Origin: Allacma fusca
Taxonomy: Eukaryota > Arthropoda > Collembola > Symphypleona > Sminthuridae
Length of the DNA stretch: 64,000 nt
NCBI GenBank assembly: GCA_947179485.1
Contig: OX359247.1
Location: 11,260,588 to 11,324,587 of the forward strand
Direction: 5' to 3'
The position numbers were made by a program, and so were the translations under genes. A model generated the notes under the pieces. That model had not been told where the DNA came from. It did not search any database and saw only the letters and a list, made by a program, of their open reading frames with translations. Positions 5,036 to 63,215 of this stretch are shown one piece after another. Numbering within the stretch: the first letter of the stretch is position 1; every line of letters begins with the position of its first letter.

Positions 5036-5043
5036 CAGGCGAT

Positions 5044-14600: not shown

Positions 14601-14968
14601 GGCTACCGACGTGCCAGTGTCTTACGAACTCTGTCTTTCTCTCCCTCACGTACATACATATGTACGTACAATGGGGATGGCACCGGAGCTCGTCAGTCTT
14701 TCTCTTAAGTGCCTTCGTGTTTACCGACCGAGCATACGCTGGAATAAACTTGAATTTTGTCGGGGAAAATTATCCTGGTGAAGTAGCTCTTTCTATTTAT
14801 ATGTTTCCGTATCGTACGTGCGGATAGGGACTTTCCATACACTGGCCTACTCGTACAGTTTGTTGACTTGAGGTGAAGCCAGGGGAAGAGTGTTACCTGC
14901 ACAGTAGTGTTGATAGTGCGTGTGAATAAATTGATTGGATGTTTCTTCCGTTGTATAAATATATATTC

Positions 14969-14993
14969 TATATATATATATATATATATATAT
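14969..14993. repeat. (TA)n microsatellite
   Basis: About 12 uninterrupted TA units, preceded by an imperfect ATATAT stretch. Confidence 0.95.
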
Positions 14994-16656: not shown

Positions 16657-16683
16657 TGTGTGTGAGTGTGTGTGTGTGTGTGT
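16657..16683. repeat. (GT)n microsatellite
   Basis: A GT run of about 13 units with one GA interruption. Confidence 0.9.
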
Positions 16684-19274: not shown

Positions 19275-19275
19275 T

Positions 19276-19306
<31 letters not shown>

Positions 19307-19350
19307 GTATGTGTGTGTGTATGTGTGTGTGTATGTGTGTGTGTGTGTAT
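19275..19350. repeat. Compound (GT)n/(GTAT)n microsatellite
   Basis: A 76-bp run of GT broken at intervals by GTAT units, the longest simple repeat in the left half of the window. Confidence 0.95.
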
Positions 19351-29686: not shown

Positions 29687-29871
29687 GTTGAGAAAGTCCC
29701 AGTAACAGGAGCCGGGATGGTTGGGACATCAAATCTAAGCCAAGATCTTCTGATGTGGTGTAAGGAAGTCACCAAGGGTTATCGGGGGGTCAAGGTAACT
29801 AACATGACTACTTCGTGGCGAAATGGTTTGGCCTTCTGTGCCCTGATTCATCGGTTTCATCCTGAATTGAT
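29687..29871 (+). CDS. EHBP1 exon: first half of CH domain
   Basis: The acceptor is TAAACATAG and the donor GTAAGT. It enters in phase 0 (GTT GAG AAA...) and ends two bases into a codon. It encodes the start of the CH domain, including the WCKEVT and [19 protein letters not shown] motifs. It is the first exon that can be recognised in the window. Confidence 0.92.
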
Positions 29872-32800
29872 GTAAGTTTCCATGTCATTATGAGTGCTGA
29901 TTTTTTGATACCTCCGAATCACGTTTTCGCTCAGAAAAGACGTCAGTTATTACAAGTATGGGTGTGTACTTTGTATGCACAAAGCTGTAAAAAGAAATTT
30001 TGGAAGAATATTTGAAGTAAACTGTAACCTGAGCGGAGGTGATGTAATCTGGTGTTTTTGTATGTAGGAGCTTTTGCAATGAAATATTGGATTTATCAAA
30101 GTTTTTTATGTGATAACCATTAGTTTAGATATTGATGTGATGCCCTGTATTTGATTTGGTTTTTAGAGACTTCGATAAGTTGTCTCCACATGATATTAAA
30201 GGGAATTGCAAGACCGCCTTTGATGCAGCAGAATCCCTGGGTATTCCAAAAGTTATTGATCCGTCTGAGATGATGTTATTGCCCGTCCCGGATAAGTTGA
30301 CTGTTATGACTTATTTATTTCAGCTCAGGACCCATTTTACAGGTGAATTATTCCTTTTTCTTACATTTATGACTTGACTATATACACTGTAATTTTTCTC
30401 CCATTCCTAGTCTGGTTGTGTCCAGTATGTACATACGTAACGCAATATCTGTAAAATTATCTCTCGCCAACTGACACTACCAACTACCAACTGTCGTTTG
30501 TACACGGAAAGAAGTAGATCTTGTGGATGTAGTGCGCTACCCGCACGCATCCCCTACTACTTTCCCGTTTTACGATCACCGGCCGCAAAAACTGGTCCAT
30601 AAAGCTTTCCATTTCAATTCGTCTTATATCATTTCCGGATGGGGTTGAGTTCCAAAGATGTGAAAGAATGAAAATCCTGACACACATACTAATGATAAAA
30701 TGCACCTCCCATTCCTCTTCCACACACAGCTGTATCTGACAAATACAGTTTAAGTTTATTTTTATCCTTGAATATGTTTCGGTTTTGTGAATAGCATACT
30801 ATTTTTTTCAAACTCGTAAGGAAATTACTTGAGATTATTTTTCAATGATAACAAAATTATTTTCCAGGTTGTCTCCTTGAGGTTCAAAATATCGGTGCAA
30901 CATCATCCGAGACATCTTATGTAATAGGACAGAAAGAAAATGAAGAGGACAATGCCCTAACAAAGAAGATATTTCAACAGGAAATTTTAAATATGAAAAA
31001 TAAAGCGGATAACAACCGAAGTTCCAGCTCAAGTCGGGAAGGGAGTGTTGGAGCCGAAAGCACGAATTCTAATAATAGTACAAATCGAAATCGTTTAATG
31101 AGTAGCTTGAGTAGTGGAGGATTAATAACGAATAATGCCAATAGTGACAGTAGCAAACATGAAGTTCCTTCAAGAAAGTCCGTTAGTCATAGTAATTCTA
31201 CGTCATCCGTCTTATCAGCCATTGGAGCAAGATCAACTTCTCCGGACAAAAACAGTCAAGGCAATGCCAGCTCACCGATGTCCATACAAAACTTTTTCAA
31301 TAAATTTAATTCCGCTGGCCCAGAAAAACGGGAAAAGTCATTGTCACCCACCTCTGGGAAGAGCAGCATTTTGGGCCGACTCAATGAAATAAAAAATAAC
31401 TTGGCAAACAACAACAGCAGCAAGGTTAGTTTTTAAAGCTTTATTCAGTTTGTTTATACTTGTTTTAAGGATTCAAGAATATACTTGTTAGCTTTACGTT
31501 CGTCTCATGCTTAATCTATTAGAATAGTTTTCCAGAAAAAAATATTTATTCCTGTCGTAAGAAATTGTTTATTTTTGGAAAAATAATTAGACCGCTAGCC
31601 AAACATCACCAAGTGACCACCGGCCACCTCTTATGACCAGGAGGCAATACACTGATCCCTTAGGTTCAGACGATGAGGATGATACAGCTAAGTCTGAAAC
31701 GCCAAGAAGAAGCAGCGAACCTGTTACTCCTGTTCATAGGGTAAGTTACATACAATTTGAGAAAAGAGAACCTTAAGAAATATATTTAATAATAATTGTA
31801 TAGCGGTAGATTTTCTTGGCATGGTAAAAATTTACTCATGTGGTTACAACAAAATTTTATAGGCAACAATCGGCGTCCCAGATCCAGAAGCTCCTGGGTT
31901 GTTGGATTTATCTCCTACAAGAAAGGATAACCAAAATAGTCAACAAGTAAGTGTTTAAGTTTAAATATCTCTATTTTGTATTCGATACAATTATTTCTGA
32001 ACCATCCATTGGTCGTAAGTTGGCACTTTAAAATTTTATGAATCACTGAAAGTAGTTTCCTATATGAAATTAGGTTTTTGACATTCAGATGAATAAATGG
32101 AGCACCAGTTTTTGAGCTTTTTATTAGATTCTTAAGTTAAGGAGCACCAGTGAGGAAAGTAGAGTAGCAGATAAGCTTTAATAAACAGAGTTAGTTGCTA
32201 TATGTAGTATAAAATGTAACTATTTAACTTCATTGAATGTACATGTTGTTGTAAATGGAAAATGGCTGAATTCATTACAATTGTTTGTTGTTTCTACTTT
32301 CAACATTATTTTTCAAACTATAATTTTTTTCTGTATGAAGTAGCATCTAATTTGTTTTATTCAGTATGAGAAGAATGATGTTCAGGCTTGGATTAGTTGA
32401 AACCTTCACACATTCTCTGAATTAGTTACAAAGAATAATAAGTCCATGCTAATAATAAGCTATTGCTAGGCTTGCTCATTTCCATGTTAATGATCATTGT
32501 GTTTGAGGTAAATAAAATATTCATGAATTATGTAAGTGATATTGAATACAAGGCTGGTGGAATGCATTGTGGTTACTATTGAACAGAAATTGTTGGCTCG
32601 TCACGAAGAGCTACGGGAAAGAGCAAGGCTTATGCTATTGGATCACTCGAAGAGAGACGGTTCGACTAAAGGATCCCCAAGTTCGAAGCCATCCACACCG
32701 GTAAGTGGTGAAACTGTTGAAATTTACAGAAGGGTAAATGGGCAGGCTTCTCAAGGCTGTAAATATTTGATTTTTCTGTTCCATATAAAGGTGTAGAAAG

Positions 32801-35800
32801 TGTTCTCGACTACATGCATGTGTTTGCAATAATAATGAAGTTCTCTGGTTCAAGAATATACCATTCATGTTGAAAGGTTGAGGCTGTGCTAGGGCCTTTG
32901 TCAACATGAGATTTTAGTGGAGTCGTAAAAAATACCCCTGGAGTAAATGTGGATTAGAATAGAGCCTTTGTTTCAAGGCATCTTGTGTTTACTTTTTTAT
33001 TGATTGTTTCAATCGTTATTTGCTCTCTACAGAATTCGCAAGACGAAAAAGAACGTCAACAGCAGTTGAGGGAAAGAGCCCGTCGACTTATTGCAGAAGC
33101 TCGCCAAGGTGTGATAAGTCCTGGCATGGACATGTCAAGGTCAAGTAGTCATTCTGGAAACGATACTCCTTCGGGTACACCTTCATCTCAGAGAAGCCTG
33201 GACAGTCCAGGGAGGTCTATCGTATCTACTGATGCCAAAAATGTTTGTGATAATAGAAATAAGGTAAACATTTTGTGTGTCTCAAACTTGCTCAATTATT
33301 ACCGTTACATGAAAATGAAAACAGATCGTAGTGAAGTTTGTAATTTCGATACTATGGAATGAATTGTAAAGCAGTAAATAATTTATGTCACTGATGTGTT
33401 GTCAGGAACTGAATGGAAACTTCTCAAGCGCCAATACGAGTGAAGTCAGTCGGAACTTGGTGGCAGAAAATATTTCTACTCCCGGTTCGGTGCTATCTGA
33501 CATAAATAATAAGAATGTTCCATCCACAGCTTTGAACAACTCTTCAAAATCATCAAAATTAAAATCCTTCCATACGATTTTGGATAAGCTGTCGCCTGAA
33601 CGAGAAATACAACCGAAAGTTGTGAGTTAATTAGTGTATATCTATATTTATATTCGTTTAAATACATATATTTCGAAAATATTTTGATAAATTACTTCCA
33701 TTACGTTTTGAAAACCAAATTATTTTAAATAGGTTGCTCGTAGGACAAAATCTTACATCCAAAATGAACTAGATGCTCTCGAAAGAGAACAGGAACAGAT
33801 TGATGAGCAAGCTAGAGTTTTGGAGCAACAGTTGCGAACTGTCATGAAAGATGGTATGCAAAATTATTTGTTGTCAGAATCTCTTTGCAAAGTGTCTTTC
33901 AGCCAATTATAACTTTGTGTTTTGTGTAATTAGGAAATATGGATGAAGAGGATGCGTTGATGTGCGAATGGTTTACACTTGTTAACAAGAAGAATGCTCT
34001 AATAAGGCGCCAGATGCAGTTAAATATCTTGTAAGGGCTGCTAAATTTTTTTAAATCATTTTTACATTGTTTTGAAGTTATGTGCTTAATTTTGAGGTAA
34101 GTAAATGTAATGAGTGATGGCTAAAAGGCACAAAAACTCAGTTTTCAAGAAGCGTTTAACGAACAAATGTTTTTAGGAAAAAGAGCAGCACGTATAATTG
34201 GTTCTGTGAAGAATGTAGGATTCCGAAATTTTTGGATGTCGATATTGTAGCTGTCATTTTATGAAGTTTTTATTTCCAGAGAGTCGAGGGTTTTTCTTTA
34301 GTTAGTGTGTCTAATGGATTCCCTGTGTACGTACTCCATAGTAGTATTTTATCGGGTAGAATTTTTTATTGAAAAGAATGCGTGTACATTATTATTTGTG
34401 GTATTATGTTATCCCAGTTTTCATTGAAATATTGTTATTCATCATACTTGAACAGCTGTGGCGTGATACACGAATTCATCCATTTTACTCAATGAAATGG
34501 AAATACGAGATTTGATATAGAAACATTTTATCGGTATTCACATGTCATGTTTTGACAACAAATCAAGTTTTTTCTACGACCTATTAGTTCCTTACAGATG
34601 GAATATATGATAAACTATAGGCTTGCCATCTTATACATTTTTGAGAAACTCGTGAACAACTCGTGTGTTCAGGTGTCGTCTGCACCCAAATACTTATTTA
34701 GTCTGAAACTCCTTTATGGGTAGCCATTGGTACTACTACTTGTTTCGAGATGCTAAGTGTGTCTTTAATTTCTAAAAAAAATTGTGCTGTCATGTGATTA
34801 GGATCTCCCACGTTGAAATTAGGGGAAAGTTAGAATGCGGTTCTTAATGCATCAAAATTATGCTGGTTTTCGTAGATATTTGTATCCAATGGATCGTATA
34901 AATCGTATGTTGTATCTAGAAAGTCATTTGCACAAGTGAAAAAATATTATATATTTCCTTTAAAACATTCTGACGCTCATCTTCTGTTTTTGAGCTATGA
35001 ATCTCAAAATTAGTGACTTGTTATGACAAAGAGGATCGACGTAATTACAATGGGTGTTTGTCGTTTTTAGTAACATCAGAATATCCCTTATTTTACAGCC
35101 CTGTCTTTTCAAATACCAGTAAGGTTTTGAAATCAGACCAAATGATGTATTGAAATCGTCAGATTTTAGAATCGTAACTTGAGCTACAGATCTGAACATT
35201 TATTAGCTAATTTAACATTAATTTCTAAACTTTTTAGCCAGAAAATTAGGATGTTGTTAGAATTGCTCTGTGCCAAGAACTAACAAGAATATACCCTTAG
35301 ATAGATGCAGGCATAACAAGAGCAGTAAGTGCTCCCTTTAAGGTTAAGTTTATGATTCTCACCTTGTCTTTAAACAGTTGGCACTTATTCACGTACATTA
35401 CACACCTCTTCTAGTGAGCCACTTGACTCAATACGAGTTTATCAGTGATCGATCTGAGATTGAAACCAGTCATCAACAAGAAAAGAGTGTTTCAACATGA
35501 GTAATATTACTAAGGTTTATTTGCTGGAAATATTCTCATTCATTCACTGGATATGTATGTTTAAAAGTAGACGTATGTAGCTGTGTGCTCATGCTCCCAT
35601 TTCCCAAACTGATAAAATCTTGGAATGAGAGAGTGTTGCAGCCTTTGAAAGTAACCATTTTTAACCCAGCCTTTATTCCTTGCTATTGTTGAGAGCAGAA
35701 GCCACTGCATACCTTCAAGTTAGATATGCATAGGTGTACTGGAAGGTGAACTTATAAGTATGTATATCAAGTTGTGGAATTCGAATGAAGCAAGGTGGAA

Positions 35801-38800
35801 TGGGTAGTTCCAGTAAGTGGTTTTTCAGCACGATGTATTTAGAATAGACAGCCTGTCAAATCATTCCTGTGGTTAACAATGTGATGTGTATACCTGCCTT
35901 TTTATGAAGTGTAAGATTTTTTACTTCAGTTTGTTCACTTTAAGGAAGATGTGAGAATATATTGCACAAACGATGATTATTTAGAATTTCTCAAGAAATA
36001 CTATTGTTGCTTGTAAGGCTCTGTCTTTGAATGTCTTGAAATTAAACTCCTTCGACAGTTTGGTGGTTCACACCCTTGCATCTTACAAATGCTATTGTCG
36101 GGGTCTCAAATGAGTTGTATAAACATTATTTGCGCTTGATCTACTGAATAGAAAGAATGGACCCACCACACAGGAAAGTATACTTTTACGAAATATCTCT
36201 CGAATGTTTTGCAGTTCGTTGGTGTTTGAAGTGAAAAAAACCAGTTCGCAGTTCATAATAAAGATTTCACGTCGGTTCACATCAAAGATGGAATCAATAG
36301 AAAACCGGCTTTCATGTTGGGAGTATATCGCGGAACATGAAATAAAAATTAAATAAAAAGAATACAAAGGATTGGATGGGAGGTATGAATGTTATAGGTT
36401 ATAGTACTATTCACGTGTAAACTTGCATGTCTCGTTTCTCTATTAAATACTGTACTACTGGGAAGAATTGGGAGTTGTTAGAGTGTCTGTATGTTACATC
36501 AAGTATGTATGTATATACATGGTGTGTTATATTCACGTGCTCACGCGTGGTTTCCCAGAGTTTTTAATAGACGGGAATCTTTTCCCTCCTTTCGGTTGGG
36601 TTGGCTCCGTCGTTTCTTCTTTAATTTATGTGATAGAGTTCAGTCGGAAGAACTTTCTTTAAGCTGGTTTGGTGGTTGGACTTAAGCCTATCTGTCATCG
36701 TTTCTCCATTAGAAGTTTTCAAGTCATTTAGATTCTTCCAGTTCCTTTCCTTGGATAAAGTTGATTCCACTGGAATGAACCAGGCAACTTGTTCATCAAC
36801 TCGTAGACTCTTCCTGACTCTTGCCCGTGGAGTTTACCGAATCTGTATTCCTATTTCATAACTTTCTTTCTTCAGCATGTATAGTTACTCTTTAAGTTTT
36901 CCTATTAAATAGCTGGTATACATACACACATTGAAGTAATCGATATAGTATTTATATGTGTACAAATGTACCCTGCAATTAGATATAATTAAATACATCT
37001 ATTTATATACATACATATGCACATATTATTATGTATGTATGTGCTGTGCTCATGCACCTTTCTTTTGCTGGTATCGTAAATACAAATACATGGAAGGAAT
37101 ACGTATGTATTTATCCTTTGAGGAGTATCTTCAGTTATTTGAAGTACTATTAATAGACTGTATTCGTGAGAGTATTTTCATAGGTGTTTGTATAAATGAT
37201 ATCCAAAGTAGTGAGAATATGCTGAAAATATTGGAATATTATAATGGCGTGTGGAGTCTGAAATACTTGCTGCGGATTAGAAAATTTTCGGATTAGATTT
37301 CAATAATTACAATTTTGCTTAATTCCTTGAGACCCTCAACGGGAAAAAATTGGGCTTTAGGCATAAATCATGGAGTAGTAAGGCATTTTGTAAAAGTGGA
37401 GTAAAGGTAATGGGACTAGAACATAAAATTGTGAAAGTAGGGAAGCTGGTTTCTCTGTCGGAAGATGGAGCGCCGGGATGAATCTGTGTGTGCAGGAAGG
37501 AGATGTGAGGGAGTCTGAAACTTTACATTCTGACAATAAGTGGGATTTAGACATGGGAGAAAAGTGCTTGCTGTTCAGGGAGTATCTATGTAGTAGCTTC
37601 CTGCTGAGTGGTTTCTGATGCGAGCTGTGACTGACTCTATAGTAGCATGTTCGTTAAATCTAAAAGATTCTTTACCGTTTTAATTCCACCCTCACAATAA
37701 TGTCCGTTCCATTCATTATTATTCTTTGGAGCAAAAAAAAAACTGTTTCATTCATCTCATCGTTTGTTGTATGCATAGGAATTTGTCAATGCAGTCATTG
37801 AGATCTGTAGACGTCAATTGTGAGCCCAGCAGTTTTAAACGTGGGGTGGATAAAAGACGGAGAGATTATATTTTGCATTGTAATTTCTATAAATCTTTTC
37901 CTTCCCCGACTACATGCTGTGGCGTGGTTCGGTAACATTTCACATTACGCTTGGATTGACATTTTTTCTCAATGGAGAAATTCAAAATGTACCAAGATGA
38001 AAACTTGAATTGTTCAAGTTGATGCCGTGCTTTCTAGTTTTAGCATTGTTACGCCTGAAATGTACGTTTTTACCAAAGCATAAACTGCAAATTCGAAATT
38101 GTATGTATGTATTGTATCAATTCTATGGTGTAAATTATTGTAGCGTATGAATCTGTTTTTTTTCCTTTTCAGAGAGAAAGAGGAGGACTTGGAGAGCAAA
38201 TATGAGCAGTTGAATGCGGAGCTGAGACGAATTCTTGCAAAGGATGGTAAGACATTTTATTATTCTCAAGTTTTTCTTCCCAGTATGTAATTACATATAT
38301 TCTAGCAGAATAATCGTGAGAATATCTCCTTATGTGATATTCAGACTTTTTAATTTTTATGAAACGCACTTGGATAAAATTTCATGAAATACATAGTACA
38401 GTAATAAATTTAAAGTTTGCAGTGTCCACAATTCCAGTAGCCTGTAAAAGTAGAAGTCAATTTAGCTTAATTTTTTTATGTTATGTGCAAGTCATCTACT
38501 ACTAGGTGCAAAAAAGGCTACTTCTCCCAGTGTTCAATACTCAATAGGGAAAAATGTTTGGAACATGCTGAGACCGTTTATAAAACACGGGGGTTTATGA
38601 ACTTCATTCTTGAAAAACTACTTGGTTGTAAATAAATAACTGGCTTAAAGAAGACGTAGACTGTAGTCATGGTGCAGTGACCCAATATCTCTGTGACATT
38701 AGCATAATTTTAAAGGTGGCCATTTCCAGTTGATTATAAGGGTGATTGAAGTTGGGTCTACTAATGTTACGGGTGTAAACGGATATGCAGCATAAAGGAA

Positions 38801-41800: not shown

Positions 41801-42045
41801 AGAAAGAAAACCTTGTTTATTCGCTTGAATTGAGTCGGTCAGTGGAAGAGATTTACTGTGAGGCTGTCGGGGAGGATAAGCTTAACCTGCAGGCCCGTTC
41901 TCTTTGGTGAAGCTCTTTGGTCCATTATCATCTTGTTTGTTATCGACCATGTTGAAAGTCAAGAACAAAAAGGAACAGGATTTGTCTTTTCATTTGTCAT
42001 TCCTTCCCTGACTCAAACATGGAAACGCAGTTAGGAACATAAAAG

Positions 42046-42082
<37 letters not shown>

Positions 42083-45000: not shown

Positions 45001-48000
45001 GAAGGTTTCAGTTCACTTCAAAACTGACTCTCTCACTTGCCTGCCGCTTCTCTTTTCTCTCATTTTCACCTTTGACTTCCTTCACGGTATTATTAGGGAC
45101 GGGCCTTGACTTCCTTTTCCTGAATTGTTGGTTCACGTCAGGGGACGCCGCATATTTGTTGAGAACAGTTCCTGGAGACTTACAAATACTTGTGAGACGA
45201 CCTAATTGTGATGTGTGGAAAGAGTTGGAAGTGTGGTAATGTGAAGGTGCGGAAAAGTCGTGGGGACAGTACTATGAACCTACGGGATAGAAAGTTTTTA
45301 TCATTTTTTTTTTGTTTTGAGCAGTCGTACATTAGAGACCCGTTTGTGCGTGCATGTCTAGTGTGTGGTTAAGAGATGAGGTGGTTGTGTGGAAGTACCG
45401 GGAAATGCCTTTGGAAAGTACCCGACATTGTCTACACGGATCGACCAACTTGCTAAGTGGTTCTTGAAAGTTTGTACACCATTCCCTGAAGTTCTACTAC
45501 TGACGTTTATATATAATTATGTATGTAGTATGTATCTACATACGGAACCAGCTGACTATCAGCATTAGGAGCTTTGCCTCATTGCTGTGGACTGTGGAGT
45601 CACCGTGCATATCTGTAGAGACTACATCTCCATCTACAATGTACATACATACGTACATGTGAGAGGGGAAACTCCTGTTTCCTACAAGTGGCATTTAATG
45701 ATGAGTTTGTTCATGGGCGGAGTGGTGAAAAGGTGCACTTTTTCTGTATACTACTCCACACACACACACACACACACACACATGTGTGTGTACTTACAAG
45801 GAACTTTCTCCTTGTACCATTTCCAGTCCAAATACTACACAGGAGAAGGGAATAATTCTGTCCGTATTTGTTCAGGAACTTGTGCCGGATATAAGTACCG
45901 CTTGTAAGTATCTGTGTATGTTTGCCATGCTCATGAATTATAGGAGAGATACATACATGCATCCAGAAGTGATGGAGTAGTGTCGCGTTTGGAAGGAATT
46001 GCGTAGGGAAGAGAGAAGGCAAGGAATAATAGCGTGTGGAAATGCTGAGGATACTTGAGCCAACTGGATGTGAGGGTTGTCCTCGGTTGGAATTCCATGT
46101 ATTGCTGCACTTTTGCTGGTTCCTCTGTGGTTCCGCTCTCTTTGTATTGTATGTATGCAGGGAGAGATATGATTTGGTATGAGGGTTCATATAGATTGAG
46201 TGTATTTATACTGTACGTATGTATGTATGTAACACTGTGTGTAGCAAACTTAGTTCAGTTAGACCTGTGTGTGTGTGTGTGTGTGTGTGGAGAAATGTGA
46301 TACTTTATGTAATCATGTCAAAGTCGTAATCGGGCCCCATAAGTTCGTTGTATGTCTACAGTACGTTCTATAGTAGTTCCTTACTAGTGTTTTTATTCTA
46401 CTTGATCTTAATGTTTAATACTCTCAAGTAGTTGGACTACCAGTCTGTGAGGTAGCATTTACCACTCTAACTAGTATATGGACTTATGTAGGGAAGGACA
46501 CTGAATATTCTCAGGGAATTTGCAACTCGTATTTGTATAGATATATGTACATACATAGGGGCAAGTTATCAGAGAGGCAAGGGCAGGCAGAAATAAGGGT
46601 TTGAAATTTATGAATATATTTGTTGGATGATAAGGTAAAGACTGTTGTGGTGCACAGTACAGTAAGTATGTATGTAGGAGCAGAGTGAAAGCCCTGGATG
46701 GGAGGGAAGGCTTGTATTGTAAGCATGTACATGACTTTACTAGAAAAGAGAGAAATGTGATGTCGGGAAATTTTCATTTTTCTCTGTCAAATTACAAATG
46801 GGAATGTCAGACTTGAAAAATTTGTCTCCTATGGAAGTCTGATTTGTTTGACTTTTATTTTGTGGCAGAGCTCGCAAAAACAGAGTCGGATCGGGTCCGA
46901 GAAGCCCTGCTCCTGGAAGAACTTGTCACTGTTGTCAACAAAAGAGATGAACTTGTCACTCATTGGGATGACCAGGAACGAGCGTAAGTTCAATTTATAT
47001 TTTTATTTTAAATTCCCATCAAGTAGTAGTATACTAACTCATACACATATAATATCTGTAGTTGTTAAGTGCATGATGTAATTGTCAGTGAATGTAAAGG
47101 AACAGAACTCACTTTAATTCCCTGGAATATAAATCTGTATCTTTGAAAACTATTAGAGAGAAGAGTTTTGAAATGTAAACATTTTAGAGGATTTCGGTTG
47201 TTCGATGTATTGGGTATACTTGAGCATTTATTAAAATTGGGCAGGACTCTGTTTGTTCACAATATGGGAATGGAAGTTGTAGAAAAAAAAAGACCGTCAG
47301 TTTAATAGTAAAGCAAACCTCAGCTGTGTATACAAATACAGAGGAAGAAGCTCCTATTCTTGGAGTAAAAAGATACACATGGGAAGATACTCCCTCATTT
47401 CATCCCTCGTGGACTCATTTAGCACGCTTGTCATATGATTTTCTGTGCTTACTTTCCTTTCTGACTCAATTGAACCATGACTATCGTCTTATGACATTGG
47501 AACAGGGAGTTTACAGGGGTTTCTTCCTTTCTCTCTTTCTTTCCCTACTTCTCCCTCCCCCTTTGATTGTCTCTTGCCTTCTAATGTAAAGGCTTTCAAT
47601 TTAAACAATTTTTATTCCCATAAAAAAGACTCACCCGTCTCATTTCTTTTGATTCTTTATTTTTTTCAGTGCTAAACATAGGAAGACATATTCTTGAAGA
47701 GGTAACTGATTCTTACATTATAGCCAGGCTTACAGTTTCTAGCCTGAGGGGGGAAAACCATATAGTTTCCGTGCTGTCTTGTACTACTACTCCTTTTGTG
47801 CTTCTGTTTTGATCAGCTCCATTGTTTGATGAGATGAAAAAAGTTGTATTCTTTCATTAGGGATGATTTCATGTCTTCAGGGCTGTAATCATCTAGCTAG
47901 TACATAAGTACATCCAGGGGTAGTAAAAGTACATTCACATTTAAATTTCTTAGCGTTCGGCCCATCCTAATGTTGATATCTTACTCATGATCTCTTCCTC

Positions 48001-49004
48001 ACTTAGTTATTATTTGCTAGTGTAATTTCCTGATTATGTGGAGAGATATGTAACTAATTTATGAGTTATTTCGTTTCATGTAGATAGATACTGTATATCT
48101 ACGCGTGACTTACAAATACGGAAGGATGCTAAGCTAGGCCCGGGGGGTTGGGGACGTATTAAAGTTAAATTAAATAAGTGCATGAATAGGCTCTACAACT
48201 ACTTCCACGTGATGGCTGGAGGATTACGTTTTTCTGTTTCTTGGGATTCTTGTCTCCTCTCGGGCAGGAGCTGTAATATTCAGGTTACCATGGGACAATG
48301 AGAAAGTAATTGTGACAATTTAGCCCCCATTTCCCGATATGTAATATCTACTTTATAAAATTGTTTCCTACGGTAGTATTCATTTTCAGTATCTATGTAT
48401 CTACATACTTTCAAAAAAAATGGTTAGTGCTTATGTACATATGTATATGTCACATTGTAAGTATTTAGTTTTCAGTTGTGTTTGGGGAGGTAGTACAATT
48501 TGAGTTTGTAAGTTTGAAAAATGGTGGCTGGGAAAAGGCAGGCAATTGGTCTATGACAGTCGCAGGTGACATGGAAGGGATTTGAGAGCCGGACAGGAGC
48601 AGCAGCGGGAGTTAGAGCAATGTGTAGTGTAGAAATGTGACTCTCGTATGGCTTGGTGGATGTACATGGGATGTGAAGGAGAAAATGAACAAGAGTAGAA
48701 AAGGAGGAATGAGGACAAAGGCCTAAACCGGATTAGAGCTTTTAAAACCGGAAACGTGAAATATTGTGATTTATGAAATGACATTACCCGTGGGGTTTAA
48801 CTTCTCTAATGGACACTGTCATCCCAGGCAAAGGCACCTCGACTCACGGTTTTTACCGTCTGTATCACAAAAAACTAGTATTTCTCCCTGTCAGCATTGT
48901 GAAATCTATTCCGGTGAAATATAGGAGCTAATTTTCCATGTCTGTCAACCCATGGAACTCTCTTGGGAGTGTACATGCATACTTTAGCTCTGGCCTGGTG
49001 TGTG

Positions 49005-49050
<46 letters not shown>

Positions 49051-55000: not shown

Positions 55001-55116
55001 TGAAATTATTATTTTGATTTAATTTCAGAATCGAAGATGATGAAGAAATCGAAAAGGATGTTAGTCATCTGGAAATTTCCCGTACTTCTGCGAAGGAGAA
55101 TTGCACTTTGCAATAA
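29687..55116 (+). CDS. EH-domain-binding protein 1, 3' part (13 coding exons, CH domain to stop)
   Basis: EHBP1 links endocytic-recycling EHD proteins and Rab8/Rab10-type GTPases to actin and membranes. Coding exons: 29687-29871, 30167-30342, 30868-31424, 31591-31740, 31863-31946, 32587-32700, 33033-33263, 33406-33621, 33733-33853, 33934-34030, 38173-38246, 46869-46983, 55029-55116. All introns are GT-AG and the phases join without a break to give 735 residues plus stop. Residues about 14-118 are a calponin-homology domain ([54 protein letters not shown]) nearly matching vertebrate EHBP1. Residues 121-571 are a Ser/Asn-rich linker with two charged helices ([22 protein letters not shown]). Residues about 572-715 are the bMERB Rab-binding domain ([32 protein letters not shown]). 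The protein ends ENCTLQ, a CaaX box like the CVLQ end of human EHBP1. The start and the N-terminal C2 domain are not identified, so the entry is 5'-partial. The identification rests on family sequence recalled from memory. Confidence 0.93.
30167..30342 (+). CDS. EHBP1 exon: second half of CH domain
   Basis: The acceptor is GGTTTTTAG and the donor is GTGAAT. It completes the split Ile codon and encodes [20 protein letters not shown] through [15 protein letters not shown], closing the CH fold. It ends one base into a Gly codon. Confidence 0.93.
30343..30867 (+). other. EHBP1 intron, 525 bp
   Basis: The intron begins GTGAAT and ends TTTTCCAG. A minus-strand frame at 30484-30723 has no recognisable content. 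Nothing else was seen. Confidence 0.8.
30868..31424 (+). CDS. EHBP1 exon: post-CH segment and Ser/Asn-rich linker
   Basis: This is the largest exon seen, 557 bp. It starts with [21 protein letters not shown], which lines up with the conserved 'VVQIE...STYKVG' segment after the CH domain in vertebrates. About 150 residues of low-complexity Ser/Asn sequence follow ([40 protein letters not shown]). The donor is AAG|GTTAGT and the exon ends in phase 0. Confidence 0.9.
31591..31740 (+). CDS. EHBP1 exon: linker with acidic stretch
   Basis: This exon of 150 bp is in phase 0 at both ends. It encodes [34 protein letters not shown] and SEPVTPVHR. The 'RRQ-TDP' and DDEDD patch resembles the RQTESDPDAD segment of human EHBP1. 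The donor is AGG|GTAAGT. Confidence 0.88.
31863..31946 (+). CDS. EHBP1 exon: short linker exon
   Basis: This 84-bp exon is in phase 0 at both ends, with acceptor TTTTATAG and donor CAA|GTAAGT. It encodes [20 protein letters not shown] and a short polar tail. No domain is known here. Confidence 0.82.
31947..32586 (+). other. EHBP1 intron, 640 bp
   Basis: This is AT-rich with no repeats of note. The acceptor has a weak pyrimidine tract (GGTTACTATTGAACAG), which could favour regulated splicing of the next exon. Confidence 0.75.
32587..32700 (+). CDS. EHBP1 exon: first LRERAR helix
   Basis: This 114-bp exon is in phase 0 at both ends. It encodes [20 protein letters not shown] then SKRDG and a Ser/Pro tail. 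It matches the RLLSRQEELKERARVLLEQA segment of human EHBP1. The donor is CCG|GTAAGT. Confidence 0.92.
32701..33032 (+). other. EHBP1 intron, 332 bp
   Basis: It begins GTAAGT and ends TGCTCTCTACAG. Nothing else was recognised in it. Confidence 0.8.
33033..33263 (+). CDS. EHBP1 exon: second LRERAR helix
   Basis: This 231-bp exon is in phase 0 at both ends. It encodes [20 protein letters not shown] then RQGV, almost the same as DEERRRQLRERARQLIAEAR in human EHBP1. A Ser/Gly/Thr-rich stretch follows ([20 protein letters not shown]). The donor is AAG|GTAAAC. Confidence 0.93.
33406..33621 (+). CDS. EHBP1 exon: linker before bMERB
   Basis: This 216-bp exon is in phase 0 at both ends. It encodes a Ser/Asn-rich segment ending [19 protein letters not shown]. 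No known domain is present. The donor is GTT|GTGAGT. Confidence 0.87.
33733..33853 (+). CDS. EHBP1 exon: start of bMERB domain
   Basis: It encodes [20 protein letters not shown], then [18 protein letters not shown], the first helix of the bMERB coiled domain. It aligns with SQYVVGELAALENEQKQIDT of human EHBP1. The donor is G|GTATGC in phase 1. Confidence 0.94.
33934..34030 (+). CDS. EHBP1 exon: bMERB core
   Basis: It encodes [20 protein letters not shown], then [12 protein letters not shown]. This is the most conserved part of the bMERB domain (human: [20 protein letters not shown]). It is separated from the previous exon by only 80 bp of intron. The donor is CTT|GTAAGG, two bases into a Leu codon. 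Confidence 0.95.
34031..38172 (+). other. EHBP1 intron, 4142 bp
   Basis: It begins GTAAGG and ends TTTTTCCTTTTCAG. The first 2 kb, to about 36100, is AT-rich and almost free of TACATA tracts and microsatellites, unlike most of the window. Short frames at 36958-37296 and elsewhere are low complexity. No nested gene was recognised. Confidence 0.75.
38173..38246 (+). CDS. EHBP1 exon: bMERB middle helix
   Basis: This 74-bp exon completes the split Leu codon and encodes [20 protein letters not shown] then LAKD. It aligns with EKEHDLERRYELLNRELRAM of human EHBP1. The acceptor is CCTTTTCAG and the donor is G|GTAAGA. It is too short to be seen as a stand-alone frame. Confidence 0.94.
42049..42079. 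repeat. (GA)n microsatellite
   Basis: About 15 uninterrupted GA units inside an EHBP1 intron. Confidence 0.95.
43032..43159. repeat. Paired (GA)n and (CT)n tracts
   Basis: A GA run at 43032-43054 is followed after 72 bp by a CT-rich run at 43127-43159. The two are complementary and could pair into a stem of more than 20 bp in the EHBP1 pre-mRNA. Confidence 0.85.
44885..44904. repeat. (GA)n microsatellite
   Basis: Ten GA units inside an EHBP1 intron. Confidence 0.9.
45757..45791. repeat. (CA)n tract ending in TGTGTGTG
   Basis: About 13 CA units turn directly into TGTGTGTG, giving a self-complementary end. Confidence 0.9.
46266..46289. repeat. (GT)n microsatellite
   Basis: Twelve GT units inside an EHBP1 intron. 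Confidence 0.9.
46869..46983 (+). CDS. EHBP1 exon: bMERB final helix
   Basis: This 115-bp exon encodes [20 protein letters not shown], then [19 protein letters not shown]. It aligns with human LLLDELVALVNKRDALVRDL. The acceptor is TTTTGTGGCAG and the donor is GC|GTAAGT. Confidence 0.95.
48998..49049. repeat. (GT)n microsatellite
   Basis: A 52-bp GT run with one GC interruption near its start, among the longest simple repeats in the window. It produces spurious poly-His-Thr and poly-Val-Cys frames on its two strands. Confidence 0.95.
49865..49885. repeat. (GCAT)n microsatellite
   Basis: Five ATGC units in tandem, self-complementary throughout. Confidence 0.85.
50758..50775. promoter_or_regulatory. 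18-bp perfect palindrome with everted AGGTCA half-sites
   Basis: CATTGACCTAGGTCAATG reads the same on both strands and contains TGACCT and AGGTCA back to back. AGGTCA is the nuclear-receptor half-site. It lies in an AT-rich, repeat-poor part of the last EHBP1 intron. Binding is inference; one such palindrome in 64 kb is not far from chance. Confidence 0.3.
51815..51918. promoter_or_regulatory. Cluster of GGATTA sites and a TAAT inverted repeat
   Basis: GGATTA occurs at 51815-51820 and 51894-51899, and GGATTG at 51833-51838. GGATTA (TAATCC) is the binding core of K50 homeodomains such as Otx and Bicoid. Directly after the second site lies GCCCCTAAT-G-ATTAGGGGC (51900-51918), two exact 9-bp arms around one base. 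The cluster is in the last EHBP1 intron, about 11 kb from the Otx exon. A regulatory role is inferred. Confidence 0.35.
53288..53322. repeat. (CA)n microsatellite
   Basis: Two CA runs separated by GAAAGA. Confidence 0.9.
55029..55116 (+). CDS. EHBP1 last coding exon with CaaX box
   Basis: The acceptor is TTTAATTTCAG. It encodes [20 protein letters not shown] then AKENCTLQ and the stop TAA at 55114-55116. The acidic run and the Cys-aliphatic-aliphatic-Gln ending parallel the human end (EEEDEHLE... KCVLQ). CTLQ should be prenylated, anchoring the protein on membranes; this is known for the family and inferred here. Confidence 0.93.
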
Positions 55117-55418
55117 GCCTGTGCAGGTGACAATTGTGCACAGATGATTTGTAGGATCGGAAATGTTGTCACGCTTGGAATCATGCATACATATTCATAC
55201 ATGCACCTTTGTATGTTCTTAAGTAGAAATGATATTCCTTTAGAGAAATGTTGTGCTGAAGTGGATCAGAAATATAAAGTAGATCTTACATACAGCCCCT
55301 TTTTATAGGACGTGTGTATCCCTTTTCCACAGGAGTTTTAGTATTGAATCACAGGGAATAATAGTAGGAGATTTGTACTTTTGAATCATCACTTGAGTTA
55401 AAACAGTTGTTGTTATAT

Positions 55419-55424
55419 AATAAA
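55419..55424 (+). other. Possible EHBP1 polyadenylation signal
   Basis: AATAAA lies 303 bases after the stop codon, with a T-rich stretch about 15 bases downstream. Other copies farther on are equally possible. Confidence 0.25.
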
Positions 55425-58400
55425 TTAAGGAATCCTGTTTTTGACGCCAAAATTTAGTAACTATTTGGCTTTTTGCATTGTCATTTTGTATGCAGAGCTC
55501 ACTTGGAGCCATTTCCTATTGCAATATTCCCTAGACTTTTACGAAATCCAGACGTATTTTTCAGTTGTAATTTAAAACTATTGTTAAATTTAATTTTTGT
55601 GTTTTTAATGGTTCGTTATAAATTGTGAGTATGATTTCACAAGGAATTTATTATGTTTTTTTAAATACTCGAAAAGACCTTCTGACTGTAAGTTTTATTG
55701 ATGGGGAAACAAGAGATCGTCAAAGGAGAAACTCTATTATGAAGGGTCAGTGTAATGAGCTCGGAGTTGTAGAAGTAAAGTAGTGATTGATGACGGTTAG
55801 AGAATTCTAGATTAAGGAGAAGAAGATATCCCATACACACATCAATTATTGTATATGTAGATACGTATTTATAATTCATTGCATGCTGAAAGCATATCTC
55901 TCGATGATACACTACGAGGGGAAGGGGTAGGAAGCGACTTTGGCCATGTACTTACAATTTTGTAATTTATTATAATAATATAATTACTTAAAATATCTCT
56001 TAATTATTAATCATATATTATTGACGTTAATGAGTAAGCGTATCACTAGATTGCTGTGAAAAAAGCCTCTGTAACCTAGACATGTGGGTGAACAATCCAG
56101 GGAGACTTACCGTATGGTTCTCGCATTTAGTTATAAAATAAGTCTTAAGCGGTCGTAATGCTTTTCTAATTTTGTTTGATATTCTCTATGAAACCTTAAC
56201 TTCTGATATACAATTTTATCGGAAGAAACTGCCTCGCTTTTAATAACCGAAAGTTAACTTTATCAGTTAAATATTTTTGAAGTGTCATCGCTTTTACTTT
56301 CTGTCACTTTAGTTGAGTAAGTTACTGTAAAAAAAATTGAACTTTAATGTCCGCATTGTTGATAGTTCACATGCATCACAGATGTATGTCATAAGGAAGC
56401 GTATGCAATACTTAAGGTTGTACAGACAAGGAAGGGGTCCACATATTTTCAAAGTGGTTGAAATTGAGGAAATCATTTCATAACTTGGGGTTAATGTAAT
56501 TAAATATGTAATTACATGTGGGGTGAAATCATAGAATTTAATGGGACAGCAAAATGTTCATTGTTTTAGTCTGCTTCAAAGTCCACAATAGATTATAAGT
56601 ATCATAGAGACTCCTGGTAAGATGCATTTTGCTGAATATCGGTTACCTGTTTATTATTTCATGTACATACTGTTTACACACAATCATGCATGGAAAACTT
56701 TAATGCCATTGGTACCGTATTGCAATTTCATTGTCCAACTCTAACCGGATCATAAGCCATAAATATTGTGAATTGTTTGGAAACGAAATGGATATTATTT
56801 TTGAAAAAGTCATAACTGTAGGGTTAAGTATTACCAGTAATTCTGACATGTGTTTACAGTATGTACGATTGTATTATCTGATTTAGTAAAAGTAATCATG
56901 CTGAGAACGACAAGCTGTAAAACCTGTATTTGTAAATCCGTATTTGAGTACGGCGTTTACTAAATCGAATTCGCTAAAAACGTTCTTAATTAGTCCTGTC
57001 CTTCAATATCTCCCTTTGAAGCAAAGCAGGCTGTACAGATAGATTTTTTCCAGCTAGCGATTTGAGTCTTTTTAACATCTAATAAAATTCCTAGTATTCT
57101 CTTTATGAGCTATTTTTACTCTACTATTCTAAGTAATTAATTACCTGCGAGTAGTTTTTGTATCCTTTGGTAAATACGTAGTTTCTTACTATCTGTAGAC
57201 ACTAGGTCCAGTTATATTGAATTATTAAAATTTTGCTACTCGACAAACTTCAAAGCTGTGTAATTGAGATGTGTCTATTTGTGAGTAGGATTAATTTAGA
57301 ACATTTATTGTTTTTCGTTTGTACTTTGTTTTAGTTTTGTACTTCTATTCCAGGATGGAACGTGTATAGCTTACAATTTTAGAGCGAACATGCAATGCAT
57401 TACGAAAATACTTTTAGGATTATTTTAAGCCATTTCTTATTGTTAGCTTAAGTATTTGTGTGTGATTGTGCCGTACGCGCCTTTATTTGATAATACTAAG
57501 TCCATTGCATTATAGAGAAAAAAAATTATACGCGGATACCTACTATGAAATCTAAGTTTTAATGCATTTGATAATCATGGAAAAAGAGTTGGCGCATTTC
57601 TCGTTCTTGACTATTGTTACTGCCTATTATCAATTTGCAAATAGAATGTGTAACTTTATTGTGATTAGAAGAACCCATGCTACCAAATATTGGTAAGGTC
57701 GGATGAAATTTTGAGAGGATGAGGTCCTGTATAGTGTTGCATGTTGATTATTGGGGGAGAAGAATGGAGGCGAAAAAAACCTTCTTGGATTACAAGAACA
57801 CATCACTTTAACAAGCCATAAAAAATTCCATGTGATGTAAAGATCGCAATCAAATAAGATAGCTAATTGTAAGTTATTGGGATCGAAGTCAGGTAAAAGA
57901 AAAATGTTGAAATGACATGAAGTAATCCATGGTGACGTCAAATAAAAGGGTACTAATAAACTCCTGTTGTAGTAGTAGCTATATGTAGTATGAATTGAAA
58001 TCTTTGGGAAAAAATGTCTAACAATAGATACTTTTTAGCACAATATACCGAATGATTGTACCTTCGCTACCTATAATTATTTTTAGCAACACATGAATTA
58101 AAAATAAGTTTCCACAACTTATGGAAGACACGATTTTCCCTTGCACTGAATCACACCAGCCATTATTTAGCGTTTAGTGAGTAAGAAGCAACGAATTTTT
58201 AACGTACTATAGAAAAAACTATAGTGTTGTAAAGATATTGTATTGTAAAGGCGCATTTACACACACAAAAATGCGAAAAATAACAGCCCTTGTAAGCGTT
58301 TGCAAGATACGAAATAAAATACACTGATATATAACCAAACTGGTAAAAGTTTTTTTTATTGATCGCATAGATATACATACATAGATTCTACAGATGGAGC

Positions 58401-59526
58401 CATCACTTCGTACATGGTCATCCCTCACTATTAATTTAATGGTTTATTAATTAAGTACTGACAGCTGAACAATACTGCGGAAAAATGGGGTTCGAAGTTG
58501 TGGTCGTTTAGGGAATTGGTATTATCATCTTTATGTACAGGAAACAGTACGGGGTCCCATCGGGGCTCAAATTGAAAAAGAACTAATTTTTGCTTCATTC
58601 ATTCCTATTTTGGAATAACTAATTGGAATTTAATACACCACGACAGATTCGCTCGGTTTTATACTTGTGGATGCTCCTTGGGACTTAGAGAATCAGGGGT
58701 TTCGGATTTCATCTCCTATTCATGTGACTGGGAGGAAAGTAACTACCAGAGGCTTATACATATGTGTATGGGGATATACAATGTATTATGTAGGACGTGC
58801 AGTCTTTTGTCATAAGTATGTATTTCCGTGGCTCCGTATTTAGGCCGTTGGAGCTTCCTGATTTACAGTCCTGTCTCATGCCCTTTCTGATTCCCCAAGG
58901 GGTAAATGTAAAATAACAGATTTGGAGGAGCTATCTTCCCTATATCTTTCAAGCGGTACATTGTATTTTCTCTGATCTAGACTGATTGTTTTTATCTCGA
59001 CTGTGTCCGTCAAAATATTGAGGGTAAGTACTAATGACTAGATTTTAGACTGCTATTACGTAATATGCATGTACTCACAATTCCGGAAATTTTTGCTACT
59101 ATTTGTTTTTTTGTTGATAGTTTGGATTTCAGCACAGTCCAGATATCCTCCCCCAAAACTACCAGCAAAATTTGAATCATCGGAAGTTGATACATTTATC
59201 TACCTAATTGCATCTACATATACTATATAGAAATAAAATCCATATGAATATGATTACAGCACTACATACGAATCTAGTAGTTGAGCGATTGAGAAGAAAG
59301 TCATCGAAAATAATTACTTATGGGTAACTTCGGCTACGCTTGGACTCATACTATACGGGGATCTCGTTGGAGCATAAAGCTGTTCACATGTGAGGACGAG
59401 ACAGAAATGTTGCAGACAAAAAAGGCACAGTGAATACAATAGAATTTGCGAGAGACTCATTTTATCAGCCAGATTAATCTGGACGAGAATGATGTTCCTC
59501 CACGATTGAGCTGAATTGATACTCTC

Positions 59527-59529
<3 letters not shown>

Positions 59530-59560
<31 letters not shown>
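59530..59560. repeat. (CT)n microsatellite
   Basis: About 15 uninterrupted CT units between the two genes. Confidence 0.95.
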
Positions 59561-59561
<1 letters not shown>

Positions 59562-62534
59562 GAGTCTGTGGGCTCATTGCAGCATAATCATCAAATCAAC
59601 TGTACACAGTTTGTATCTTTTCCCCTGCTCGGTTTGGGCAGATATGTAGATATATGAGGGTGTCTGGGAGGGTACGCTCCATTCCGTACCACTTGAACGA
59701 TAAGCAGTCATCATGATGGGCATATCTTGATACCGCATCACATCTGCCTTCGTGTCCTGGTTTTTCTGTGGGCACGTGCCCATACTCGTTGCCGCCTTCT
59801 TTCCTTATTGCATATCCAAAGAATATGCTACTCATTTGCTTCAGAAATGGTCCATGGTATGGTCATGTGTGTACATGTAGATACGTAATTATATCCAACG
59901 TACTTACTAAAATCACAATTTGATTTTGTTTGTCGCCCGTGTATCCAATCAGGTAGAAACTCAGCTCGGGGTCATAATGCATAGTATCCACAAAATATAT
60001 GTATGTTCGTCCATATTTACAATATGGAGTGTCAAAGAGGAGGTATTGCATGCATGTGCTAATGAATTGAAACCATAGCTTGAAGCACTATCCTCCAGCT
60101 ATTTGTATAATTCTCATAGATACGTTCCTTGATGCTGAGTGTAGTATGAACCCAGGTTCCCATTGGAAAGCAACCTATGATTTCGTTTAGGTAAGATGAA
60201 TTCCATTCCGACTAAAAGCATTTCCCTCATAGCAACGTGACTGCCAACAAATTGAGACTCCTATCATAACGGTCTGGATTCATTTTCAAGCAGAGCAAAA
60301 GAGCCCGCGAGGAAGGTTTGTACAAGAAAGTAATATCTGTACAAATTTGTTGGATGTGTTTTGCTCTTACGGAAATAAAAAGGGTACTACACAAAAATGT
60401 CTCAATCTTTTACCCGCCTTGGTTACCAGGGATTCTGAGGACTATCATAGGGCAGAAATAAATATTAATGTAGGTGTACTATACACATATGTACATAGGA
60501 GGAATCAAAATGCGAAAGAGCTACCCGTTTGAGAGAACGCTGGAAATCTAAGAAAGGGAAAAAATGATGAAAAGGACAAAAAAAAAGATGGGGAAGGAAG
60601 GGTTGAGCTCCAGTCGATCCATTTACCAATCCTTTCAAAACTGTACCCTGGGCTTCCTTCCTCCCGTAAAAATAACCATCCCATTCCATAGCAACAGCGA
60701 ACTGTGTCTTCCAAGCCTCTGGAGTCTCACTCACACTGTATCTTACTTTTTTTTCCCTCTACTGTATCTCCATCCTCCCTGAAACTTTCAGACCTTGTGG
60801 GAAAGTCTAATCCAATGAGAGTCAACTCAGTCTACGGTAAATAATAGGAAGAGAAATCTGTCGCAATTCTCCTCTTATCAACAAAACTTTGGCCCATTTC
60901 CCATTCTACATAAATAATTACATCTGTCATACAAATTTAAGTCAATACTGTGGATTATTCCAAAGCAATTTGTCAAGGTGCTCAAAGGAAGTTTGCACAA
61001 GGAGTAGGTATTGTATTGTATAGTTGAAAATGTTCAAATGAGAAAAAATGTCCGTCAGACGAGCAGGGCTTTTCGATGCAATTTGTTTTTATTCTTTTGT
61101 TTTTGCAGGTTTATCATACAGTAATAATAATTACTCTTTAATATCAAATACAAGGAAGGACTTTGTAGTTAAACGGATCATGTTAAACAGAAATATATAC
61201 GTGTACTTAAGTTAATATTACATACGTAACTTATAAGAAATTACAATGATTTTTCAATTTATTGATATCATCACTTTGAAGATCATCTCCATCGCATCGA
61301 CTTAACACGATCTGTATTTGCACTCTCTTTTAGTAGTTTCTATTATTAGAACATCCATACTTGTACTCACTATGTATGTACTTCCCCTACACTTACAATA
61401 ATTACATAGGTCTAGCATGGCCCTTACTCCTACAAATTAAAACAGTGTAGTTTTACAAATACTCACGGACACATTTACTCCTGCAATTTTATCATATTTA
61501 TATACGACCATAATTTATGTAATAATTTAAGGTTACAATCTTTTCATTCCTTGAAATGTTCTAGGTTTTAATTTTTTCTCAAAATGTATCAGTGTATTAC
61601 TTTACATATCCTTAATGTATGTATGTATGTACTGTTCAAATGGGAAAGGTCCAGGGAGTTCTCAGAATAATACTAATTAATTCGTGTGTGGTAAATACTC
61701 ACATCGTGCTAGGAGTGTTGTTTACCTGGCCATGCATTGTTTTTGAAATTTAAATGTATATATCTAAAAATTATTCAAGTTTTGAATTAAGTTCTGGCAT
61801 AAAATCTGCAATAATTAGCATTGCTATGAGTAGATTGAATGATGCGAGGTATAAAACCCTCGACGACAAGTCCTTACAAGTCTTAGGGGGAAGGATGACT
61901 TTCCTGGGACAATGGTAATAAATAATTGGGATTAAGTCCAGAAAAATGAGGACTTGGGGCTGAAAATGAGAAAATGGCCAGTGACAAGTACCTATCTGTA
62001 AGAGAGTAGAGCAATAGGGGAGGAAAACCTGAAAAATATTGCCATATAAACATGACTAAGAAACTGAAAATTTCCTGTGTACATGGGGCTTAAGCCCTTA
62101 TCTTATCGTGAGATTTATGTTTGGAGTAATTCCGCATAAAATGTTCTCCACGATAATTCTAAACATGATTTGCATGTGTAATATATGTCGTACAATAAAT
62201 TAGTTTTGATGATATGCTCCAAGTCTTACTTAGTTCATTGTAACATGGCGAAAGTAAATCCTACTATTAATTACGCTAATGCGACCATAAGGAAGTAATG
62301 GAATGAGATGATGTACCAGTGGTAGTAGGAACTGTAGGAACAAGCCCAAAACTCATTACATTAACAAGCATTCCCTCATTCCCTCACCTGAAATCTTCAG
62401 ATGCCCCTATCCCTGTATATACATATCTATGTATATACAAGTTACCCCTCATATAATGGACTATACTTTGAATTGAAGGCTCTTTCTCCTAAAGCTATTT
62501 CCGACTCCCCTCAAATCCAACCTGATGAGTTACG

Positions 62535-62579
62535 CACACACAGACACACACACACACACACAGCCACAGCCACACACAT
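62535..62579. repeat. (CA)n microsatellite
   Basis: CA runs interrupted by CAGA and CAGC units, close to the 3' end of the Otx gene. Confidence 0.9.
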
Positions 62580-62847
62580 AAATGCTACACTCAGTGTCAC
62601 CTCACTGGTTGCAGAACTGGTTGCAGATTTTAAGGACTTTTCTTTTGACAGTATACTGATGAGCCTGTACTTCCTATTTGTGTAATTTGGGTGAACGTGC
62701 CTCATATGTATAACTCCGGTCAGGCCAGCTACAATGGATATAGTTTAACTTTTGCAGGACTAAATCCACATATCTACTGATAGAGACATGGGTATTGAAG
62801 ATGGTAGGAATTCCTAGGTATATATAATACAAGTGTAGTATATTTTT

Positions 62848-62853
62848 TTTATT
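62848..62853 (-). other. Possible Otx polyadenylation signal
   Basis: AATAAA on the minus strand lies 44 bases after the Otx stop codon. If used, the 3' UTR would be very short; more distal signals exist. Confidence 0.25.
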
Positions 62854-62897
62854 GAGAGGCTAAAAGACCAGGAAAACCCCAAATGTCCCAGAGGAAC

Positions 62898-63215
62898 TCA
62901 TAATACTTGAAAGCTTTGATATTTCCAACTTTTGTCAGCATTGTAATCCAGGCAATCAGAGGATACGAGAGTTATGCTCGAATGATTATTCACAGGAGTC
63001 ACCGGTGTGACTGGCGTAGATCGCATTGCTGATGATCCTACGGGTGAGGCAGTTGGGAGCAACACCATTGTTGAGGCTCCGGCTACTACCACTCCTCCTC
63101 CTCCTCCTCCTGCCGACGAAGATGATGATGAGGATGAGGACGAGGAACAGGGGAGAGCTTGAGTACTCATCACCTGATTGCTCATTTGCCCGTAACTTGA
63201 CATAGACGAGTGTAC
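62898..63215 (-). CDS. Otx/orthodenticle homeobox protein, C-terminal exon (partial)
   Basis: This exon of 318 bp reads on the minus strand to a TGA at 62898-62900. Its acceptor is TTCTCTGTGTGTGTAG and it opens in phase 0 with VHSSMSSYGQMSNQVMSTQA. It encodes 105 residues: an 11-Ser run and a 6-Gly run near residues 24-41, a TPV triplet repeat (STPVTPVTPVNNH), then the tail DCLDYNADKSWKYQSFQVL. The tail matches the conserved Otx ending (DCLDYKDQ..SSWKFQVL in vertebrate OTX2), with extra residues between WK and FQVL. Otx proteins are K50 paired-class homeodomain transcription factors that pattern the head and anterior brain. The homeodomain is not in the window and must be encoded to the right of 64000. 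The tail was recognised from memory; the neighbouring EHBP1 gene supports it. An unrelated Ser-rich protein is unlikely given the tail. Confidence 0.82.
   Translation of the reverse strand, partial: VHSSMSSYGQMSNQVMSTQALPCSSSSSSSSSSSAGGGGGGVVVAGASTMVLLPTASPVGSSAMRSTPVTPVTPVNNHSSITLVSSDCLDYNADKSWKYQSFQVL

Follow-up and report, generated by a model that had tools for sequence, protein, structure and literature searches.

EHBP1 next to a tandem pair of Otx genes in the springtail Allacma fusca: a gene neighbourhood probably shared with human by descent

The trafficking gene EHBP1 and the developmental regulator Otx, which patterns the head, lie side by side in the springtail Allacma fusca, where they converge on each other and where Otx is present as two tandem genes, here called OtxA and OtxB. 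The window analysed is a stretch of 64,000 nucleotides from chromosome 3, near 11.3 Mb; both of its flanks were analysed as well, and positions that are negative or above 64000 are window coordinates that fall outside it. EHBP1 and OTX1 are also neighbours on human 2p15, and we regard the EHBP1-Otx linkage as very probably homologous between springtail and human. The best explanation overall, which we favour with some reserve, is an inherited neighbour pair kept as a genomic regulatory block (GRB).

The first-pass annotation, made from the window alone, had described 13 EHBP1 exons on the plus strand. These exons (29687-55116) are separated by 12 introns, all with GT-AG borders and agreeing phases, and when spliced they form a single frame that stays open for 735 codons up to the stop. 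The set stands as described; a probable further exon at 20153-20276 had been missed. The full EHBP1 model comprises 19 exons, with GT-AG borders in 18 of 18 introns, encodes a protein of 1,115 residues and extends over 59.5 kb. Its start codon is at position -4417 and its first five modelled exons lie to the left of the window. The first four encode the N-terminal C2 domain and the sequence after it, and the fifth (-1388 to -956) is based on codon score and splice sites, with a phase that fits its neighbours. Judged by its sequence, the segment at 20153-20276 is probably exon 6 of EHBP1. We call it probable and not certain because in a control of 199 kb one candidate with identical phases scored higher (19.2); one more scored above 10.

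The modelled protein carries an N-terminal C2 domain (PF10358, 9.2e-15, 55.0 bits against a cut-off of 25.2, residues 12-154), a single central CH domain (PF00307, 1.3e-25, in one stretch) and a C-terminal bMERB domain (PF12130, 7.8e-37, profile positions 1-134 of 134), and ends in a CaaX box (CTLQ-stop). Against the sequences of the PDB, the top matches of the CH domain are EHBP1 entries (6zsh, 1.2e-47; 2d89, 5.4e-47), and the next family is alpha-actinin 3 at 5.9e-29. For the bMERB domain EHBP1 is again at the top (3.1e-36), the best match outside EHBP1 being MICAL3 (4.2e-14). That the CH domain belongs to alpha-actinin or MICAL is ruled out, as the best PDB matches of both the CH and the bMERB domain are EHBP1. 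In vertebrates, NPF motifs of EHBP1 bind EH domains. No NPF is found in the 1,115 modelled residues of the springtail protein, from which linker exons may be missing. Two stop-free stretches of at least 25 amino acids with NPF occur on the plus strand between -6000 and 29700, both outside the EHBP1 model.

A C-terminal Otx exon on the minus strand, converging on EHBP1, had also been proposed from the window. This exon (63215-62898) ends in SDCLDYNADKSWKYQSFQVL-stop. Taken alone it has no Pfam match, and its comparison with a hand-typed OTX2 probe gives an E value of 0.34 only, which is weak. Its Otx identity is settled because a homeodomain to the right of position 64000 splices in frame to it, which is the check that the first-pass annotation had named for its own claim. 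The remaining OtxA exons lie at 65377-65190, 68554-68029, 69942-69788 and 73295-73202 on the minus strand. Spliced in frame, the five exons encode 426 residues with a complete lysine-50 homeodomain, located 4.0-5.9 kb beyond the window end. The best PDB match of this homeodomain is OTX2 (5.6e-36), followed by CRX (1.9e-33); with OTX2 as its best match, a paired-like gene other than Otx is ruled out.

A single Otx gene had been described, and here the earlier account was incomplete. A second complete gene, OtxB (108999-103569, three exons, 381 residues), lies in tandem with OtxA on the same strand (minus), 30.3 kb further right. The Pfam homeodomain (PF00046) is recognised in the two genes at 5e-21 and 6.6e-21, both with lysine 50 (VWFKNRRAKC), and their homeodomain regions are equal at 55 of 58 residues and differ at three. 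Vertebrate Otx proteins have an N-terminal motif, MSYLK..PYA(M/V)NGL, and a C-terminal DCLDY..SWKFQVL tail. OtxA starts with MSYLKPSPYAMNGL and carries the tail DCLDYNADKSWKYQSFQVL, whereas the corresponding motifs of OtxB, MAYLKSSYPAMNGL and ECMDSYGATEKYQVL, match more weakly. The Pfam family TF_Otx (PF03529) has no match at E 0.01 in either protein; this central region is optional for membership of the Otx group. The string WKFQVL was not found in the literature among the matches listed for WKFQVL or Otx. Significant local alignment between OtxA and OtxB is confined to the N-terminal half of the proteins, so that, from their sequences, the duplication does not look recent. Insects and crustaceans also have two otd paralogues, otd1 and otd2, for which independent duplications have been inferred (PMC4084641). 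The likeness to the springtail is that two Otx paralogues occur in one arthropod; the word 'tandem' is absent from the main text of that paper.

The distance of about 7.8 kb between the EHBP1 stop and Otx that had been given in the first-pass annotation is exact to within rounding (7,781 bp). A codon scan of both strands from 55.2 to 62.8 kb returned no exon candidate above threshold between EHBP1 and OtxA. Between OtxA and OtxB it returned candidates at ~84.4 kb only, with scores close to that of EHBP1 exon 6, and beyond OtxB, on its right, the next open reading frame (ORF) in which a Pfam domain was recognised is a NAD(P)-binding one at 137524. The training set of the scan comprised few exons, and this last ORF, which Pfam recognises, escaped it. 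Because of that miss, and because the candidates at ~84.4 kb remain, the ~30-kb flanks of each Otx gene, which appear to hold few or no recognised exons, are described as exon-poor at most and not as proven empty.

Could the neighbourhood be an artefact, with EHBP1 or Otx exons misassigned or misjoined in the assembly or its annotation? We consider this hardly credible, and nothing that would favour it came to light. Both genes leave the window and are completed in frame in the adjoining sequence, and the complete spliced models of EHBP1 and Otx rule out misassigned exons. The published Allacma fusca assembly, built from HiFi and Hi-C data, has a quality value (QV) of 58.7 and comprises 392.8 Mb in 95 scaffolds (PMC10427803).

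In human, OTX1 is flanked by EHBP1 and WDPCP, with ~3.6 kb between EHBP1 and OTX1 (PMC4159299), and the gene order is TMEM17, EHBP1, OTX1 (PMC5426703). Both papers agree with the human adjacency that the first-pass annotation had given. OTX1 is placed on the plus strand by inference from its two variants in the 5' untranslated region (UTR) listed in PMC4159299, one of which has a garbled coordinate. The human and springtail loci are alike in that the genes are immediate neighbours, a few kb apart. Human EHBP1 we take to be on the plus strand too, and with this orientation Otx is on the 3' side of EHBP1 in both species. The relative orientation of the two genes, which had been said to have changed, likely differs between springtail and human, a reading based on the OTX1 strand from the UTR variants and on the strand taken for human EHBP1. 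In human the genes are co-oriented and the OTX1 promoter faces the 3' end of EHBP1, whereas in the springtail they converge. The springtail also differs in having Otx as a tandem pair. The gene beyond OTX1 in human is WDPCP; in the springtail the next ORF recognised beyond OtxB is the NAD(P)-binding one.

Under the explanation we favour, EHBP1 as bystander and Otx as developmental target would already have been neighbours in the ancestor that arthropods and vertebrates share, and springtail and human would both have kept them together. Otx would have been duplicated in tandem on the line leading to the springtail, and either that line or the human one would have seen it turned with respect to EHBP1. 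The persistence would most likely be due to a genomic regulatory block, with some of the enhancers of Otx in or across EHBP1; a break would sever Otx from them. Other GRBs such as IRX3/FTO are similar in that a developmental transcription factor has an unrelated, long-introned gene as its neighbour, with the difference that for FTO an enhancer in the bystander intron is stated to drive the target (PMC5585340). In the same paper OTX1 is among 17 stringent human GRBs that predict boundaries of topologically associating domains (TADs).

The vertebrate data suggest such a regulatory tie. Human EHBP1 has 15 intronic or UTR ultraconserved noncoding elements and stands in a table of 20 top genes (PMC3436827). 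Fugu and Tetraodon each have two copies of EHBP1 and show a winner-takes-all pattern, the retained elements being all in one copy (9-0-0 and 7-0-0; PMC3436827). The variant rs11688816, in an EHBP1 intron, is a cis expression quantitative trait locus (eQTL) for OTX1 and not for EHBP1 (PMC5897035), and rs721048, also in an EHBP1 intron, has a modelled contact with an enhancer that is assigned to both EHBP1 and OTX1 (PMC8851830). The ultraconserved elements lifted our confidence in regulatory constraint as the cause of the persistence of the linkage, from a shade better than even to somewhat better than even. They and the OTX1 eQTL also speak against neutral inheritance, in which an ancestral adjacency was simply never broken and no enhancer tie exists. 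As a rule, direct neighbours seldom stay together from the arthropod-vertebrate split onwards unless they are under constraint. We consider neutral inheritance rather improbable.

Several points weigh against the block, and some of them favour neutral inheritance instead. Sites for five motifs were counted in six regions, with expectations from 100 first-order resamples and with statistics that are uncorrected for the number of counts. In the EHBP1 introns TAATCC occurs 33 times against 35.4 expected, so among the few motifs tested this Otx-type site is not enriched, and TAATCT shows the strongest depletion (21 observed, 53.3 expected, z -4.1). Several of the five motifs are depleted across the six regions. 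TAATCC in the gap between EHBP1 and OtxA is close to expectation (7 against 5.7). The EHBP1 introns are denser in TAATCC than the left flank of 33 kb, where 6 sites were counted (p 0.004 in a two-sided binomial test); nothing is drawn from this difference because the left flank is itself below expectation (6 against 20.7). The exon-poor flanks give each Otx gene ~30 kb of room for enhancers of its own, and the start codon of OtxA, at the end of that gene distal to EHBP1, is 18 kb beyond the EHBP1 stop. The change in relative orientation indicates that rearrangements do occur at the locus. On the vertebrate side, the accessible text of PMC3436827 mentions OTX nowhere (0 occurrences) as a target of the EHBP1 elements, and EHBP1 may not be a pure bystander, as the enhancer contacted by rs721048 is also assigned to EHBP1. 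Otx enhancers inside EHBP1 introns, which the first-pass annotation had suggested, are plausible, with all of their support coming from the vertebrate side and with the springtail TAATCC count at expectation.

Two further points of the same kind concern the comparison itself, which covers two lineages, springtail and human (the latter from papers). We also take the EHBP1-Otx pair to be split in Drosophila. Both points, together with the difference in orientation (with human EHBP1 taken to be on the plus strand), would fit an independent origin, with the two genes brought together separately in springtails and vertebrates. By a rough estimate, chance adjacency of this named pair among ~20,000 genes is of the order of 1e-4, and it stays <1e-3 when the genes next to each of the three Otx-family members in human are allowed for. 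Given these values we consider an independent origin quite unlikely.

The kind of arrangement, a developmental gene with a bystander neighbour, is known, and EHBP1-Otx is a new example of it. Ancient metazoan microsyntenic pairs are similar in that adjacency is kept across phyla and one partner is a developmental regulator; examples named in the accessible portion of PMC13317027 are Pax1/9, Foxa, Tbx2/3 and Egr, and Otx is not among these. A literature search, which most subscription journals lay beyond, returned no report of EHBP1-Otx linkage across phyla; by title, the EHBP1 papers listed are mostly on human genetics and medicine, the others dealing with a fly screen of human loci, livestock genetics or network pharmacology. 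The main catalogue of ancient metazoan microsyntenic pairs is reportedly that of Irimia et al. 2012, and the EHBP1-Otx pair is possibly on that list already. Even so, the flip and the tandem Otx pair of the springtail add something. The strongest form of the proposal is that EHBP1-Otx is a bilaterian-old and so far unreported block, with head Otx enhancers residing in EHBP1 introns since before the arthropod-vertebrate split, through the flip and through the springtail duplication. This we put forward tentatively, with less than even confidence.

Many animals pattern the anterior brain with Otx, and how much of the regulatory wiring of this gene they have in common is still open. If EHBP1 has stayed beside Otx since arthropods and vertebrates diverged, its introns would be a small and defined place in which to seek shared Otx enhancers. 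Such long retention would also give an evolutionary reading to results in human, namely the ultraconserved elements of EHBP1 and the obesity-associated single-nucleotide polymorphism (SNP) in an EHBP1 intron that tracks OTX1 expression. With the flip and the Otx duplication at hand, linkage can be tested against orientation as the constrained trait. The features inside the window are collected in Table 1.

Table 1. EHBP1 and Otx features in the 64,000-nucleotide window of Allacma fusca (window coordinates)
Feature	Position	Strand	Basis or remark
Main part of the 21.1-kb EHBP1 intron that runs from -955 to 20152, provided exon 6 is genuine; long-range elements may lie here	1..20152	+	gene model
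Probable EHBP1 exon 6 (linker)	20153..20276	+	codon score 16.4; AG/GT borders; phase compatible with the exons on either side
EHBP1 exon 7, CH domain first half	29687..29871	+	
EHBP1 exon 8, CH domain second half	30167..30342	+	
EHBP1 exon 9, serine-rich linker	30868..31424	+	
EHBP1 exon 10	31591..31740	+	
EHBP1 exon 11	31863..31946	+	
EHBP1 exon 12	32587..32700	+	
EHBP1 exon 13	33033..33263	+	
EHBP1 exon 14	33406..33621	+	
EHBP1 exon 15, bMERB domain start	33733..33853	+	
EHBP1 exon 16, bMERB	33934..34030	+	
EHBP1 exon 17, bMERB	38173..38246	+	
EHBP1 exon 18, bMERB end	46869..46983	+	
EHBP1 last exon, CaaX box CTLQ and stop	55029..55116	+	
Gap between converging EHBP1 and OtxA	55117..62897	.	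7,781 bp, stop to stop
OtxA last coding exon, Otx tail motif and stop	62898..63215	-	spliced gene model

Within the 21-kb EHBP1 intron, two overlapping long ORFs on the minus strand (4295-6027) are retroelement gag-like; each has a C-X2-C-X4-H-X4-C zinc knuckle, and neither has a Pfam match at E 0.1. Simple repeats of the TATG/CATA type are common in the noncoding DNA of the window and read as ORF stretches resembling YICMYVCMY. Upstream of OtxA, at 77891-78081, four TAATCC-type sites fall within ~200 bp, and a short phrase that recurs there contains three of them; the cluster is possibly an Otx autoregulatory element and possibly a mere repeat. The candidates at ~84370-84560 between the two Otx genes are found on both strands and could belong to a small gene, represent an exon or have arisen by chance. 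In the left flank, none of six ORFs has a Pfam family above cut-off. Further left, outside the window, ORFs clustered between about -57 and -40 kb may represent an element of the Polinton/Maverick type, with an integrase core (2.6e-5), an Adeno_IVa2-like ATPase (0.001) and an endonuclease/exonuclease/phosphatase (3e-5), all below the Pfam cut-offs.

Chromosome 3 of Allacma fusca carries a heterozygous inversion from ~5 to 45 Mb (PMC10427803). The EHBP1-Otx block (window at 11.26-11.32 Mb) lies inside it, away from the stated ends. Elsewhere in the genome is a Hox cluster with homeodomains that we label as abd-A, Ubx, Antp, ftz and Scr, which points to an arthropod and led us to drop a lophotrochozoan as the source. 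An open frame of 1,964 residues on contig C9 (21150038-21152008, plus strand) has three homeodomain matches, and we take it to resemble a zfh-type gene.

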